A DNA stretch of 64,000 bases from Ignavibacteria bacterium. GTDB taxonomy: Bacteria > Bacteroidota > Ignavibacteria > Tepidaquicellales > Tepidaquicellaceae. This document shows, piece by piece, positions 25,116 through 37,444 of this stretch (position 1 is its first letter; every line of letters starts with the position of its first letter). Location: positions 124,001 through 188,000 of the forward strand of contig JABAQZ010000001.1 of the NCBI GenBank assembly GCA_019187405.1, in the 5' to 3' direction. The position numbers and the translations under genes are program-made. Under the pieces are notes generated by a model. That model saw only the letters and a program-made list of their open reading frames with translations. It was not told the DNA's origin and did no database searches.

Positions 25116-25293
25116 ATAGTTTCAATTTTAATTAAACCGTTACAAATATAATTATTATAATAATACTTCTCTACTAATTTTATTTTAAATAATTGAAGAG
25201 AAATTTTTCAAAATCACAGATTGCAGCAGATGGATGAATTATGTTATTAATTCTTTTTTAATTAATTTTACAAGAAAAAAAATTAATTAAAAA

Positions 25294-25475
25294 TTAGTAT
25301 TCCTGCGGCAGGCATTTGATCTGAGCATAAGTAAAAACCGGTCCGTCTTTGCAGACGTAAACATTACCTATATTGCATCTTCCGCATCTGAGAATAATAG
25401 AAATGATGAATGAGATTTATAAAACCGTTTAAACGGTTTAGAAAATCTCAACGTAAAAAAACAAACTGTGAAAAA
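25294..25475 (-). repeat. flxA-tail/palindrome array, distal unit (182 bp)
   Basis: Distal copy of the flxA 3' end. Bases 25294-25387 repeat the last 30 codons and stop of flxA (25834-25927), with two synonymous changes (Tyr TAC for TAT, Cys TGC for TGT). The remainder (25388-25475) holds TGAGATTT, the 18-bp palindrome AAACCGTTTAAACGGTTT (centre 25430/25431), AAATCTCA and an A-rich spacer that differs from the other two units (an extra C inside the A-run). Nothing flx-like lies to its left; the next 170 bp to the tRNA is AT-rich and holds no gene. Confidence 0.93.
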
Positions 25476-25654
25476 TTAATATTCCTGCGGCAGGCATTTG
25501 ATCTGAGCATAAGTAAAAACCGGTCCGTCTTTGCAGACGTAAACATTACCTATATTACATCTTCCGCATCTGAGAATAATAGAAATGATGAATGAGATTT
25601 ATAAAACCGTTTAAACGGTTTAGAAAATCTCAACGTAAAAAAAAACTGTGAAAA
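25476..25654 (-). repeat. flxA-tail/palindrome array, middle unit (179 bp)
   Basis: Second copy of the flxA tail. Its coding part is identical to the gene's own last 30 codons, including TAT and TGT, unlike the units on either side. It is followed by the same hairpin, with palindrome centre 25612/25613. The leader between palindrome and tail reads as an open frame into the copied codons (ISFIISIIL then RCGRCNIGN in the flxA frame), but no start codon or ribosome site is apparent. Confidence 0.93.
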
Positions 25655-25833
25655 TTAGTATTCCTGCGGCAGGCATTTGATCTGAGCATAAGTAAAAACC
25701 GGTCCGTCTTTGCAGACGTAAACATTACCTATATTGCATCTTCCGCATCTGAGAATAATAGAAATGATGAATGAGATTTATAAAACCGTTTAAACGGTTT
25801 AGAAAATCTCAACGTAAAAAAAAACTGTGAAAA
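25655..25833 (-). repeat. flxA-tail/palindrome array, proximal unit (179 bp)
   Basis: Copy adjacent to the intact gene. The coding tail carries the TAC/TGC variants seen in the distal unit, so variants alternate along the array. The palindrome is centred at 25791/25792, and the extended hairpin TGAGATTT-ATA-palindrome-AGA-AAATCTCA is identical to the other units. On the flxA transcript this would be the first hairpin met, about 30 nt after the stop codon, and might act as a terminator or RNA-stabilising structure. No typical U-run follows it. Confidence 0.93.
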
Positions 25834-26667
25834 TTAATATTCCTGCGGCAGGCATTTGATCTGAGCATAAGTAAAAACCGGTCCGTCTTTGCAGACGTAA
25901 ACATTACCTATATTACATCTTCCGCATTTTCCAAGTCCGCACTTCATTCTGTTTTCCAGAGTTGTATAAATATCATCATCCTTAAATCCAAGTCCTGTCA
26001 GTACCGGAATTGTAAATTTTATCATTACGGGAGGACCGCAGAGAATTGCTGCAGTATTTTCGGAAGCTGGCGCGGTTTTTTCCAGTACAGTCGGAACAAA
26101 TCCAACTTCACCTTTCCATGACGGCGATTCACCGCCCGGGTCAACAGTGATTATGGTTTTTACATCCTTTCGATCTATCCATTCTTTAACTTCATCTTTG
26201 TAAATCAGATCACCGGTTGATCGAGCTCCGTAAATAATAATTATATTTTTATATTGATCACGATTATCCAGCACGTATTCAATCGTGCACCTGACCGGAG
26301 CAATGCCGATACCGCCTGCAATGAAAAGAATATTTTTACCTTTGAGATCATCGAGAGGAAAAGAGTTGCCGTAAGGACCTCTTATGCCGATTGTATCTCC
26401 CTTGTTTAGCCTGTTCAGAGATTGAGTTACTTTACCGTAAACTTTAAATGAACATTCGATAAAATCTTTTCTTGTAGGTGAAGATGAAATGCAGAAGGTC
26501 GATTCGCCGTCGCCGAATGCAGAGTATTCGGCAAACTGTCCGGGTTTGAAAGTGAATAGATTATGGGTTTTATCATCCTTGAATTTAAGCCTGAAAGTTT
26601 TTGTGTCGAATGATTCTTCTATCACTTCTTTTATTACCGCCAAATGCGGTTTGTATATGTTGTTCAT
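25834..26667 (-). CDS. flxA: FlxA: FAD/NAD(P)H-binding subunit of Flx-Hdr complex
   Basis: NAD(P)H-oxidising flavoprotein subunit of the electron-bifurcating flavin oxidoreductase/heterodisulfide reductase complex, ~277 residues from the ATG at 26667, two codons after the flxB stop (a start at 26694 would overlap flxB by 23 bases). The ferredoxin-NADP-reductase fold has FKPGQFAEYSAFG, ISSSPTR, GDTIGIRGPYGNSFP (FAD), FIAGGIGIAPVRC and IIYGARSTGDLIYKDE (NAD). The C-terminus has the [2Fe-2S] cysteines in CGLGKCGRCNIGNVYVC. Its last 30 codons, which hold the last three of these cysteines, are repeated three times downstream. Confidence 0.88.
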   Translation of the reverse strand: MNNIYKPHLAVIKEVIEESFDTKTFRLKFKDDKTHNLFTFKPGQFAEYSAFGDGESTFCISSSPTRKDFIECSFKVYGKVTQSLNRLNKGDTIGIRGPYGNSFPLDDLKGKNILFIAGGIGIAPVRCTIEYVLDNRDQYKNIIIIYGARSTGDLIYKDEVKEWIDRKDVKTIITVDPGGESPSWKGEVGFVPTVLEKTAPASENTAAILCGPPVMIKFTIPVLTGLGFKDDDIYTTLENRMKCGLGKCGRCNIGNVYVCKDGPVFTYAQIKCLPQEY

Positions 26668-26671
26668 ATTT

Positions 26672-27682
26672 TCAGTCTTTGCAGTTTGATACAATTTCTT
26701 TTATGTTAATGCTAACCGGACATCCTCTTGAGCATCTGCCGCATCCCGTGCATAATATTTTTCCGAATCTGTCAACGTAATATCTGAATTTATGATTTAT
26801 CCTCTGTCGGTATCGCTTGCTTTGTAAATCTCTCGGATTGTGTCCGGATGCATGAAGTGTAAAATGTCCAAACTGACACCCGTCCCAGTTTTTCATTCTT
26901 CTGCCTTCCGAATAACTGTAATCCTCATCAACAATGTCAAAGCAATGGCAGACAGGACAAGCAAATGCGCACTGAGCGCATGACAAACATACATTTCCGA
27001 TATTTTCCCATTTTGGACTTTCAAAATTATTTCCAAGCCATTCGTAAACTTCATCTTTATCAAAAGCAATTTCGGGAAACTTTACTTTCTTGGTTATCAT
27101 TGCAGAATTTTGTTCATTACCGTCTTTGAGAAATTCGGTGTAAGGTTTTAAAAATTCATTACCTTTTTCAGTTACTATTCTTATCGCAAAGGTGTTTTCA
27201 TCAAGAGGTATTAAAAAGAGATCCGAGCCTTTTTCTGAAACAGGCGATGTGCCTACAGATGTACAGAAACAATATTCGTCAAAATTAGAGCACATCAATC
27301 CGATCACGATAAAGTGTTTTGCTCTTGCTGTGAAAAACTCATCTTCATAATCCCATGTGAATAAATGATTCATGATTGAAAGAGATTCTGCGTCACATGG
27401 TTTTGCTCCGATTACCACAATATTTTTTCCTTCGACATTTATATCTATTATCTGAACGTCGTTTTTTCCTCTTTTGTAATAAAGCAGCGGCTCTGAACGC
27501 GGAAATGCATAAGATTTAAAAGAAGTCTTCGGCGGTAATGCAGATGTATTTAATATAATTTCCGATATATCTTTTATTCTTATATACTCGGCTTGTCCGG
27601 GTGCAAGTAAAGTGTCGCCTTTGGATAAAAGATCGCTGCATATTTTAAGAAAATCATCTTTTAAAATTATCTTCTCTGTCAT
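26672..27682 (-). CDS. flxB: FlxB: 4Fe-4S dicluster subunit of Flx-Hdr complex
   Basis: A 336-residue iron-sulfur protein of the sulfhydrogenase-beta/AsrA-like family, expected to relay electrons between FlxA and the Hdr part. Visible features are a conserved IGAKPCDAESLSIMNHLF block and two ferredoxin motifs: CLSCAQCAFACPVCHCFDI (~230-250) and CTGCGRCSRGCPVSI (~315-330). FCTSVG with extra cysteines lies near residue 140. It is similar in layout to the next upstream gene product, so the two are probably paralogues. The flxB/flxC naming follows gene order in Desulfovibrio and is the uncertain part. Confidence 0.82.
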   Translation of the reverse strand: MTEKIILKDDFLKICSDLLSKGDTLLAPGQAEYIRIKDISEIILNTSALPPKTSFKSYAFPRSEPLLYYKRGKNDVQIIDINVEGKNIVVIGAKPCDAESLSIMNHLFTWDYEDEFFTARAKHFIVIGLMCSNFDEYCFCTSVGTSPVSEKGSDLFLIPLDENTFAIRIVTEKGNEFLKPYTEFLKDGNEQNSAMITKKVKFPEIAFDKDEVYEWLGNNFESPKWENIGNVCLSCAQCAFACPVCHCFDIVDEDYSYSEGRRMKNWDGCQFGHFTLHASGHNPRDLQSKRYRQRINHKFRYYVDRFGKILCTGCGRCSRGCPVSINIKEIVSNCKD

Positions 27683-34587: not shown

Positions 34588-35496
34588 ATGACATACGAAT
34601 CTCTTCTTAACCAACTTATAATTTCAGATGAAAGATACATCGTTTTAACTGCAGAAAACAGGGCAGCGATAAGAAATTTACCAGGAACAGCCGGAGACAG
34701 ATTTATAGATACCGGGATTACCGAGCAAACGATGATAGGCATTGCAGCTGGACTTGCGTTGAGAGGACGAATTCCCATTGCGCATGCGCTTGCAACTTTT
34801 TTGACGATGAGAGCTTTTGAATTTATCCGGACGGATGTCGGCATTGGAAATCTTCCCGTAAAACTTATTGGCGGGTTTTCCGGATTTTTATCGGAAGCAA
34901 ATGGTCCGACACACCAGGCAATCGAAGATGTATCTATAATGAGAGGCATTCCAAATGTCAACATCTTTTGTCCTGCAGATGAAGTAGAAATGCTTTCGGG
35001 GTTACCAGAAATTTTGGAATGCAGCTCTCCGTTTTACGTTAGATACAATAATTTACCACCGGCAGTAAAGCATACAGAAAAATTTAGAATAGGAAAAGCG
35101 GAAATAGTTTATTCAGGGAAAGATGTTACAATACTCACTTACGGCATTCTTTTGAGGCAGGCAATTGAAGCTGAATGTGTTTTAAAGGAGAATGGTATTT
35201 CAACAGGTATTATAAATTTAAGGACATTAAAACCTGTGGATGAAGAAGCAATTCTACAAGCTGCCGGGGAATCAAAAATATTAGTTACGCTGGAGGATCA
35301 CTTTCTTACCGGAGGCTTATACAGCATCGTTGCAGAGATTTTTTTAAAGAGAAAAATGATAAAGGATGTACTTCCGGTTGCACTGGAAAACAAATGGTTT
35401 AAACCTGCATTAATGAATGATGTACTTGAATATGAGGGTTTTACAGGTAAACAGATAGCCGCGAGAATTAGCGAATATTTATTGAAGAAAAAATGA
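34588..35496 (+). CDS. transketolase C-terminal subunit family protein
   Basis: A 302-residue protein equal to the Pyr and C-terminal domains of split transketolases/DXS-like enzymes. The conserved Glu that activates ThDP is in DTGITEQTMIGIAAGLALRG. The substrate and cofactor-region blocks FLTMRAFEFIRTDVG and SEANGPTHQAIEDVSIMRGIPN are present, followed by the C-terminal domain (VTILTYGILLRQAIEA, LEDHFLTGGLYS). The partner with the GDG ThDP motif (N-subunit), normally the preceding gene, is absent from this window. In surface-sugar clusters such pairs accompany aminotransferase and NeuB genes, as here. Its last 16 codons are repeated three times downstream. Confidence 0.82.
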   Translation: MTYESLLNQLIISDERYIVLTAENRAAIRNLPGTAGDRFIDTGITEQTMIGIAAGLALRGRIPIAHALATFLTMRAFEFIRTDVGIGNLPVKLIGGFSGFLSEANGPTHQAIEDVSIMRGIPNVNIFCPADEVEMLSGLPEILECSSPFYVRYNNLPPAVKHTEKFRIGKAEIVYSGKDVTILTYGILLRQAIEAECVLKENGISTGIINLRTLKPVDEEAILQAAGESKILVTLEDHFLTGGLYSIVAEIFLKRKMIKDVLPVALENKWFKPALMNDVLEYEGFTGKQIAARISEYLLKKK

Positions 35497-35620
35497 TGGA
35501 GATTAAATGCCGGGGGGGAAAACCGTTTAAACGGTTTCCCCCCCCCCAGCTCCGCATCAAGGAAATTATATACATCAAAGCCCAAAAGGGAAAGTTTCAT
35601 GAAGTTCAAGAGCTAGCGTT
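35449..35620 (+). repeat. transketolase-tail/palindrome array, unit 1 (172 bp)
   Basis: Starts inside the intact gene: 35449-35496 are its last 15 codons plus stop. After a short spacer TGGAGATTAAATGC come a G-run, the palindrome AAACCGTTTAAACGGTTT (centre 35528/35529) and a C-run (seven G, nine C), making a GC-capped hairpin with arms of ~16 bp. An open frame then runs from the palindrome's TAA into the next copied tail, including the segment IKEIIYIKAQKGKFHEVQEL. Confidence 0.93.
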
Positions 35621-35794
35621 AAAACAGATAGCCGTGAGAATTAGCGAATATTTATTGAAGAAAAAATGATGGAGATTAAATGCCGGGGGGAAAACCGTTT
35701 AAACGGTTTCCCCCCCCCCACAGCTCCGCATCAAGGAAATTATATACATCAAAGCCCAAAAGGGAAAGTTTCATGAAGTTCAAGAGCTAGCGTT
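35621..35794 (+). repeat. transketolase-tail/palindrome array, unit 2 (174 bp)
   Basis: Second unit. The copied tail has one non-synonymous change (GTG for GCG, Ala to Val) relative to the gene. Palindrome centre 35699/35700, six G and ten C in the flanking runs, then the same open leader. Differences between units are concentrated in the homopolymer runs. Confidence 0.93.
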
Positions 35795-35964
35795 AAAACA
35801 GATAGCCGCGAGAATTAGCGAATATTTATTGAAGAAAAAATGATGGAGATTAAATGCCGGGGGGAAAACCGTTTAAACGGTTTCCCCCCCACAGCTCGCA
35901 TCAAGGAAATTATATACATCAAAGCCCAAAAGGGAAAGTTTCATGAAGTTCAAGAGCTAGCGTT
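35795..35964 (+). repeat. transketolase-tail/palindrome array, unit 3 (170 bp)
   Basis: Third unit. The tail is identical to the gene, the palindrome centre is 35873/35874, and the runs are six G and seven C. One C is missing from the leader (CTCGCATC for CTCCGCATC), which breaks the frame between palindrome and leader in this unit only. Confidence 0.93.
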
Positions 35965-36080
35965 AAAACAGATAGCCGCGAGAATTAGCGAATATTTATT
36001 GAAGAAAAAATGATGGAGATTAAATGCGGGGGGAAAACCGTTTAAACGGTTTCCCCCCACCCGCTCCCCATCAACGAAAT
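35965..36080 (+). repeat. transketolase-tail/palindrome array, terminal partial unit
   Basis: The tail copy is complete and followed by a balanced hairpin (six G, palindrome centre 36042/36043, six C). The sequence after it (CGCTCCCCATCAACGAAATTA) resembles the start of the leader in other units (AGCTCCGCATCAAGGAAATTA) and then diverges. This is where the array ends; the aminotransferase gene starts 27 bp further on. Confidence 0.9.
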
Positions 36081-36106
36081 TAAATTAAATGAAATTAATA
36101 ATATAA

Positions 36107-37444
36107 ATGCCAAATAAAATATACTTTAACTCCGATTTTCCCAATATTACCGAATCAAATAAACTCTTCAAAAGATCTGAAGGTCTCATTCCTGCTTACA
36201 CTCAAACCTTAGCAAAAGGTCCAACTCAATGGATAAAAGGTATTGCACCAAAGTATCTGATTAAAGGAAAAGATGCCCATGTCTGGGATGCCGACGGAAA
36301 TGAGTACATTGATTATAATATGGGAATCGGTCCGGTAGTATTGGGATATTGTTATGATAAAATTGACAACGCAATCAGAAATCAACTTAACAACGGAATT
36401 ACATTTTCTCTGATGCACCCGCTGGAAGTTGAATTATCAGAAAAGATCAGATCATTTATTAAAAATGCCGAATCAGTAAGATTTTCTAAAACCGGATGCG
36501 ACGTTACTTCTGCAGCTGTCAGAGTATCAAGAGCATTTACGAAAAGAGATAAAATTCTGTGCTGCGGATATCACGGCTGGCACGACTGGTACATAAGCGT
36601 TACCGATAGAAATGCCGGTATCCCCGCCGCTGTTCAGAATCTTACTTTCACTTTTAATTATAATGACATTGAATCTCTGATTAATTCAATTGATGATGAT
36701 ACTGCCTGCGTCATACTTGAACCATTTGTCTTTGATGAAGAAAAAAATTCCTTTCTCAAAGAAATTAGAAATGTCTGTGACAAAAACGGTGCTCTGCTTG
36801 TGTTTGACGAGATGTGGACAGGATTCAGAATTGCTCCCGGCGGCGCACAGGAATATTTTGGTGTTACTCCTGATCTTGCCTGCTATTCAAAAGCTATTGC
36901 AAATGGAATGCCCCTCGCTGTTCTTACCGGCAGAAAAGACGTGATGAATCTGTTTGACAAGGAAGTATTTTTCTTTACAACATTTGGAGGAGAAACACTG
37001 TCGCTCGCAGCTGCCATGGTTACTATGGATGAAATAAAAGAAAAGAATGTTCCCGGGTATCTTTCTAAACAGGGAAAGAAACTTAAAGACGGATTTAATA
37101 AAATAGCTGCCGATAATGCGATGGATTACGTTAAATGCTCGGGATATAACTGCAGAACAATAATTACATTTGATGCAAAAGCCGGCAATCCTCTCGAAAT
37201 GAAATCTCTGATCCAGCAGGAAATGATCAGGAGAGGAATACTCTGGGGCGGATTTCATAATATGTGTTTCAGACATACTGACATGGATATTGATTATACT
37301 CTCAAAGCTTACGAAGATGTATTGCCAGTACTTAAAAATGCGGTTGACAATAATAAGATCGCATCACTGCTCAAAGGCGAACCTGTCGAACCGGTTTTCA
37401 GAAAAACTACAAATTTTAATACTAAACCAAAGAAAAATAATTAA
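36107..37444 (+). CDS. class III aminotransferase, glutamate-1-semialdehyde aminomutase-like
   Basis: PLP enzyme of 445 residues. It has the HemL-like N-terminal block LAKGPTQWIKGIAPKYLIKG, DADGNEYIDYNMGIGPVVLGY, the SKTGCDVTSAAVRVSRAFT phosphate-binding region, CCGYHGWHDWY, the conserved Asp in LLVFDEMWTGFR and the PLP lysine in CYSKAIANGMPLAVLTG. True HemL works in tetrapyrrole synthesis. Here the neighbours (transketolase subunit, NeuB-like synthase) argue for amination of a sugar intermediate instead. A charged tail of ~20 residues follows the domain. Confidence 0.85.
   Translation: MPNKIYFNSDFPNITESNKLFKRSEGLIPAYTQTLAKGPTQWIKGIAPKYLIKGKDAHVWDADGNEYIDYNMGIGPVVLGYCYDKIDNAIRNQLNNGITFSLMHPLEVELSEKIRSFIKNAESVRFSKTGCDVTSAAVRVSRAFTKRDKILCCGYHGWHDWYISVTDRNAGIPAAVQNLTFTFNYNDIESLINSIDDDTACVILEPFVFDEEKNSFLKEIRNVCDKNGALLVFDEMWTGFRIAPGGAQEYFGVTPDLACYSKAIANGMPLAVLTGRKDVMNLFDKEVFFFTTFGGETLSLAAAMVTMDEIKEKNVPGYLSKQGKKLKDGFNKIAADNAMDYVKCSGYNCRTIITFDAKAGNPLEMKSLIQQEMIRRGILWGGFHNMCFRHTDMDIDYTLKAYEDVLPVLKNAVDNNKIASLLKGEPVEPVFRKTTNFNTKPKKNN

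Follow-up and report, generated by a model that had tools for sequence, protein, structure and literature searches.

An 18-bp palindrome in tandem arrays of gene tails is probably a REP-like hairpin site of a stationary IS200-like Y1 transposase gene

Why should the end of a transketolase gene recur several times behind the gene itself, each time next to the same palindrome? The question is raised by a tandem array in the window, by which we mean the whole stretch of DNA analysed (64,000 nucleotides). The array and its neighbours are as follows:

34588..35496, + strand: gene for a transketolase C-terminal-type subunit (ORF; Pfam Transket_pyr and Transketolase_C)
35449..36082, no strand: the tandem array in question (TRF: period ~174 bp, 3.7 copies, 96% match)
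35520..35537, no strand: core palindrome copy 1, AAACCGTTTAAACGGTTT, with a G-run before and a C-run after it
35692..35709, no strand: core palindrome copy 2
35866..35883, no strand: core palindrome copy 3
36035..36052, no strand: core palindrome copy 4
36107..37444, + strand: gene for a class-III aminotransferase, 3' of the array (ORF; Pfam Aminotran_3)

TRF and the exact core positions confirmed that an array with four palindromes and a repeated transketolase tail, as given in the preliminary description, is real. The four exact 18-bp cores are spaced by 172, 174 and 169 bp (units of ~172 bp); the first two distances had been reported correctly, the third as 170 bp. Each core is preceded by the tail of the transketolase subunit, consisting of the last 15 codons, KQIAARISEYLLKKK, and the stop codon. 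A segment of ~53 bp in the unit, reaching from the right arm to the tail, matched neither flank of the array, and a source for it was found nowhere else in the genome. The aminotransferase gene behind the array is a paralogue of the aminotransferase gene linked to the Y1 gene described below, and a different gene.

The window holds a second array of this kind, with the following features:

25290..25927, no strand: second array (TRF: period 179 bp, 3.5 copies, 98%), with three cores and four gene tails
25422..25439, no strand: core copy 1 of the second array
25604..25621, no strand: core copy 2 of the second array
25783..25800, no strand: core copy 3 of the second array
25834..26694, - strand: gene for an FAD/NAD-binding oxidoreductase (ORF; Pfam NAD_binding_1, DHODB_Fe-S_bind and FAD_binding_6)

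Here the 3' tail of the oxidoreductase gene, about 94 bp, is reiterated. Two linked variants of the tail (attaG...attGcatc and attaA...attAcatc) alternate along the array, a pattern that duplication of a block of two units would give. Seven exact cores in the 64-kb window compare with 0.01 expected by chance. A search of the window for further core-like sites within 3 mismatches revealed none, and an Rfam search of the window detected an SRP RNA and a tRNA only.

Genome-wide, 65 exact cores were found. Allowing two mismatches added only two sites (one with a reversed-pattern control). We located 63 of the 65 cores at 24 loci, and all locus counts rest on these 63. Two or more cores are present at 19 of the 24 loci, and two of the five single cores lie at contig ends. 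As a control, 400 kb of other stretches of this genome (G000), away from mapped cores, contained tandem repeats with a period of at least 40 at only four places, none of which holds a core. The number of exact cores, their multiplicity at most loci and the scarcity of tandem repeats in the core-free DNA support the proposal that one mechanism, rather than chance, produced both window arrays. The matching unit size of the two arrays, taken as part of the same argument, turned out to be coincidental, as core spacings and unit lengths range from 62 to 217 bp across the genome.

A genome-wide search for duplicated gene tails had also been proposed. Twelve arrays are private to their own locus, and a coding tail lies within the unit in four of these (both window arrays, L018 and L020). 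Other units repeat the downstream flank (L016, L028 and L031) or sequence that is absent elsewhere in the genome; the latter is present in L017, L024 and part of the 35449-36082 array, and no donor copy for such unexplained segments was found elsewhere in the genome. The two window arrays are thus not typical of all sites, coding tails being found in some units only. The expected position at gene 3' ends held for at least 16 of the 24 loci, where a stop codon faces the array at a distance of no more than 80 bp, and 23 of the 24 lie outside long ORFs or at ORF 3' ends (genes are simple ORF calls, and unit edges were read by eye). The exceptional core, at L142:2655 (G000:C23:41653), falls within the beginning of an ORF.

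Although the adjoining sequence decays, the cores do not. Spacers of neighbouring units differ at 73 of 1749 aligned positions (4.2%), a rate that predicts about 13 changes in the compared cores; none was seen, and the two-mismatch genome search revealed no hidden decayed copies. The arms beside the core are locus-specific and mostly consist of G-runs 5' and C-runs 3'. Measured at the first core of each locus, arms pair with their own partner at a mean of -28.2 kcal/mol, vs -22.6 +/- 0.9 kcal/mol across loci and -24.3 kcal/mol for the best of 40 arm permutations. In those arrays where an edge could be read by eye, one unit edge lies about 0-35 nt from the core and the other varies (L020, L018, the 25290 array, L016 and L028).

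The preliminary description did not name what is likely to be the agent: a gene for an IS200-like Y1 transposase elsewhere in the genome. It encodes a Y1_Tnp protein of 141 aa (G000:C6:19299-19721, minus strand) with the motifs NHVH and YISNQ, which scores 76.8 bits with Pfam Y1_Tnp, matches ISHp608 TnpA in the PDB (E=1e-6) and exceeds the cut-off of NCBIfam NF033573 (IS200/IS605). The RAYT model NF047646 did not match this protein and gave about 20 bits with two relatives, vs a cut-off of 80. One core lies 27 bp upstream of the intact gene, with two further cores behind it; the downstream side has no core.

Y1 orthologues in G001, G016, G024 and G011 are bracketed by the hairpin, and across three genera cores adjoin the Y1 gene within 19-44 bp. 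In relatives the upstream hairpin reads AAACCG-TTTTAA-CGGTTT and the downstream hairpin AAACCG-TTAAAA-CGGTTT or AAACCG-TTGAAA-CGGTTT, or else the symmetric TTTAAA form is present on one side of the gene or both. A fusion of the upstream form's left half with the downstream form's right half reproduces the symmetric core exactly, which suggests that the symmetric site may be an internal-deletion product. The stop codon of the Y1 gene lies inside the downstream hairpin in G001, G016 and G024. Compensatory stem changes were seen beside more distant Y1 homologues (e.g. AAACCATTGAAATGGTTT), and hairpins occur on both flanks of 16 of 28 Y1 homologue genes vs 0.6% of control places. The link between the core and the Y1 protein is well supported.

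In five genomes of three genera, namely G000, the three g2 genomes (G001, G016 and G024) and G011, the next gene downstream of Y1 encodes a class-III aminotransferase; identities to the G000 proteins are 47-56% for Y1 and 75-80% for the aminotransferase. We saw this fixed synteny and no sign of movement of the gene, which by these comparisons appears to be stationary and vertically inherited. G021, from the genus of G011, has a Y1 pseudogene with three in-frame stops, and in eight other genomes no Y1 match was found beside that aminotransferase. Hairpin integrity tracks the intact Y1 gene in the compared genomes. In the four relatives whose gene is intact, perfect stems are present at all 49 near-core sites (12 in G001, 24 in G011, 7 in G016 and 6 in G024), some of them kept via compensatory palindromes; in G021 eight of nine stems are broken, among them the two on either side of the dead gene. 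G009, G022 and G012, which have the aminotransferase without an adjacent Y1 gene, showed no near-core sites. Fisher tests gave p = 5e-9 overall and 6e-7 for G011 vs G021 alone, values that overstate the strength, as sites within a genome are not independent and one loss event is involved.

The residue aligned with the catalytic tyrosine of ISHp608 is phenylalanine in G001 (L162, G001:C384; EFIRNQ) and in G024 (L161, G024:C143; AFIENQ). This exchange is the catalytic mutation used for E. coli TnpA_REP (PMC8266576). All near-core hairpins are nevertheless intact in both genomes. Either the loss may be recent, or another tyrosine may serve, or binding may be enough. Because the sites are intact with Phe in place of Tyr, cleavage is perhaps not what maintains them.

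We consider it probable that the palindrome is a REP-like hairpin and the site of one stationary transposase gene, of the IS200-like Y1 (HUH) type, located in another part of the genome. The Y1 protein would recognise the single-stranded hairpin, and copies would persist through this recognition. Nicking and strand transfer by the protein, or replication stalling and slippage, could then duplicate the hairpin together with flanking host DNA, and unequal exchange might afterwards alter the copy number. The repeated gene tails would be passengers, because the sites sit just 3' of stop codons. For the duplication step the data fit transposase strand transfer and hairpin slippage alike, and a unit edge close to the core suits either. 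A further reading takes up the phenylalanine variants: the stationary IS200-like Y1 protein, without its catalytic tyrosine in some species, would be a host hairpin-binding factor that keeps the 18-bp site invariant, and the site would drive locus-private tandem duplication of gene 3' ends. We regard this as unlikely.

That the arrays arose without the transposase is quite possible, though we lean slightly against it: the hairpin would stall replication, the polymerase would slip and unequal recombination would follow, the Y1 protein having only spread and maintained the cores. Long perfect hairpins with G-runs, unit edges that showed by eye no consistent motif or obvious microhomology, and within-array variants resembling ordinary tandem-repeat evolution all speak for such slippage, which on its own leaves the stem decay at the dead Y1 gene unexplained, though both processes can coexist. 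Selection on expression offers another account, in which the hairpins are transcription terminators or stabilisers of mRNA 3' ends and their duplication is incidental. The stop codons facing at least 16 of the 24 loci and the pairing of locus-specific arms fit this role, but a terminator requires no invariant 18-bp sequence, here found in 65 of 65 copies, site integrity follows the Y1 gene, and the core at L142 lies inside an ORF; as the main explanation we hold it to be quite improbable, and a terminator role may be a secondary benefit. Seven contig ends within about 450 bp of a core indicate regions that are hard to assemble, as would be expected of assembly artefacts. The units of one array, however, can be told apart by their substitutions and indels, many loci with differing unit lengths show the pattern, and arrays are present in other assemblies too (G019, G014 and G011), so that an artefactual origin is highly improbable.

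Our preferred reading, a hairpin site served by a stationary Y1 gene, has its closest parallel in the REP/REPIN-RAYT systems (PMC3116915, PMC8049555, PMC8266576). There too, short palindromes occur between genes in many copies, some copies lie next to a stationary Y1 transposase gene that is inherited vertically, and tandem clusters take in flanking sequence. In P. fluorescens SBW25, 16 tandem REPIN clusters include flanking sequence, and a cluster lies beside each RAYT (Bertels and Rainey, PMC3116915). Unlike in those systems, the protein here matches the IS200/IS605 model and not RAYT (TnpA_REP), the 18-mer hairpin is symmetric throughout and has arms specific to each locus, and the 63 located cores have no consistent GTAG/GTGG foot, showing G-runs at most loci instead. 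With IS200/IS605 elements (IS608, ISDra2) the system shares a Y1 HUH transposase that contains the motifs NHVH and YIxNQ and is a homologue of ISHp608 TnpA, and, in the g2 genomes and G011, a subterminal hairpin on each side of the gene. It differs from these elements in that the gene keeps one syntenic position, only bare hairpins and not whole elements make up the dispersed copies, and the downstream hairpin is missing in G000.

The protein also resembles TnpA_Y1 subclass 1.2 (Quentin et al. 2018, PMC6006769) in its closeness to IS200 transposases, its WQ motif, its low copy number and, in many relatives, the signature Y---Q--HH, from which the YISNQSVYH of G000 is one residue off. Subclass 1.2 has been described as generally without terminal secondary structures (Quentin et al., PMC6006769), unlike the 16 of 28 genes with hairpins on both sides here, where subclass membership rests on motifs. 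The system is REP/RAYT-like, with a Y1 protein that is not a RAYT and, judged by these motifs, resembles subclass 1.2. TIRYT genes, which encode tyrosine transposases, have repeats at their flanks; some of the repeats are self-complementary, and the repeats also form dimers or clusters (Di Nocera et al. 2013, PMC3733652), and REP clusters are reiterated with flanking DNA segments (Di Nocera et al., PMC3733652). The present system likewise has a repeat-flanked tyrosine transposase gene and clustered repeats, a likeness to published TIRs drawn by description only. Given the precedents in PMC3116915 and PMC3733652, tandem arrays that include passenger DNA were already known; the new part is the occurrence of hairpins at Y1 genes that appear subclass-1.2-like, a motif-based placement. 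A literature search for IS200 together with palindromic repeats in Ignavibacteria gave no result.

The REP/RAYT idea would thereby be widened to a different Y1 branch, one described as generally without such sites. Related genomes with an intact, a dead or no gene at one position form a natural experiment in which hairpin integrity follows the gene; the maintenance of genome-wide short palindromes by single-strand transposases is therefore testable by comparison. The private tandem units would be a readable record of hairpin-seeded duplications.

Outside this group, the same 18-mer was found, among the matches listed, in Verrucomicrobia, Acidobacteria, Bacteroidetes and others. All-genome matches to the bare core combine sites belonging to this family with REPIN-like elements from other phyla and were used for architecture only. 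Among the matches listed for other phyla, the 18-mer often lies midway between two inverted hairpins, whose centres are mostly 29-34 nt from the core in a strict scan; a looser scan of the same matches found both hairpins at 27 of 95 and at least one at 56 of 95, vs 0.5% and 15% of random places. This layout is REPIN-like. A phage origin was rejected, the core being present in only three viral contigs, and so was a CRISPR-like reading, since the spacers within one array are near-identical and not unique.

Most of the remaining multi-core loci of G000 have a dispersed doublet in common, in which two cores lie about 47 nt from each other and enclose a further hairpin. At L019, L022, L026, L030, L139, L141 and L143 a GAGATGCGACATCTC hairpin lies between the cores, whose spacing is 45-48 nt; several doublet copies follow the tails of secreted-protein-like genes, and several are found where a contig ends. 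The single cores of L023 and L140, at the ends of G000:C8 and C22, are followed within about 130 bp by GGGCTGTCCAAAAAGTC, which resembles an insertion-sequence end, and both contig ends share sequence in inverse orientation. A dense array of another repeat, TGTCATCCCGAACTTGTTTCGGGATC, with mixed periods and without a core, is found at L228:290-2853 (G000:C20). Among relatives, G019 has an independent array of 2.8 units of 347 bp (L189:1898-2856, G019:C5) with a directional hairpin, AAACCGTTAAAACGGTTT, and outer CCCACGG hairpins. Two arrays in G014 (L190:2235-2617 and L191:30-454) contain the directional hairpin AAACCGTTTCAACGGTTT with interleaved CCCACGACTTCAGTCGTGGG and CCCACGGTTTTAACCGTGGG hairpins.
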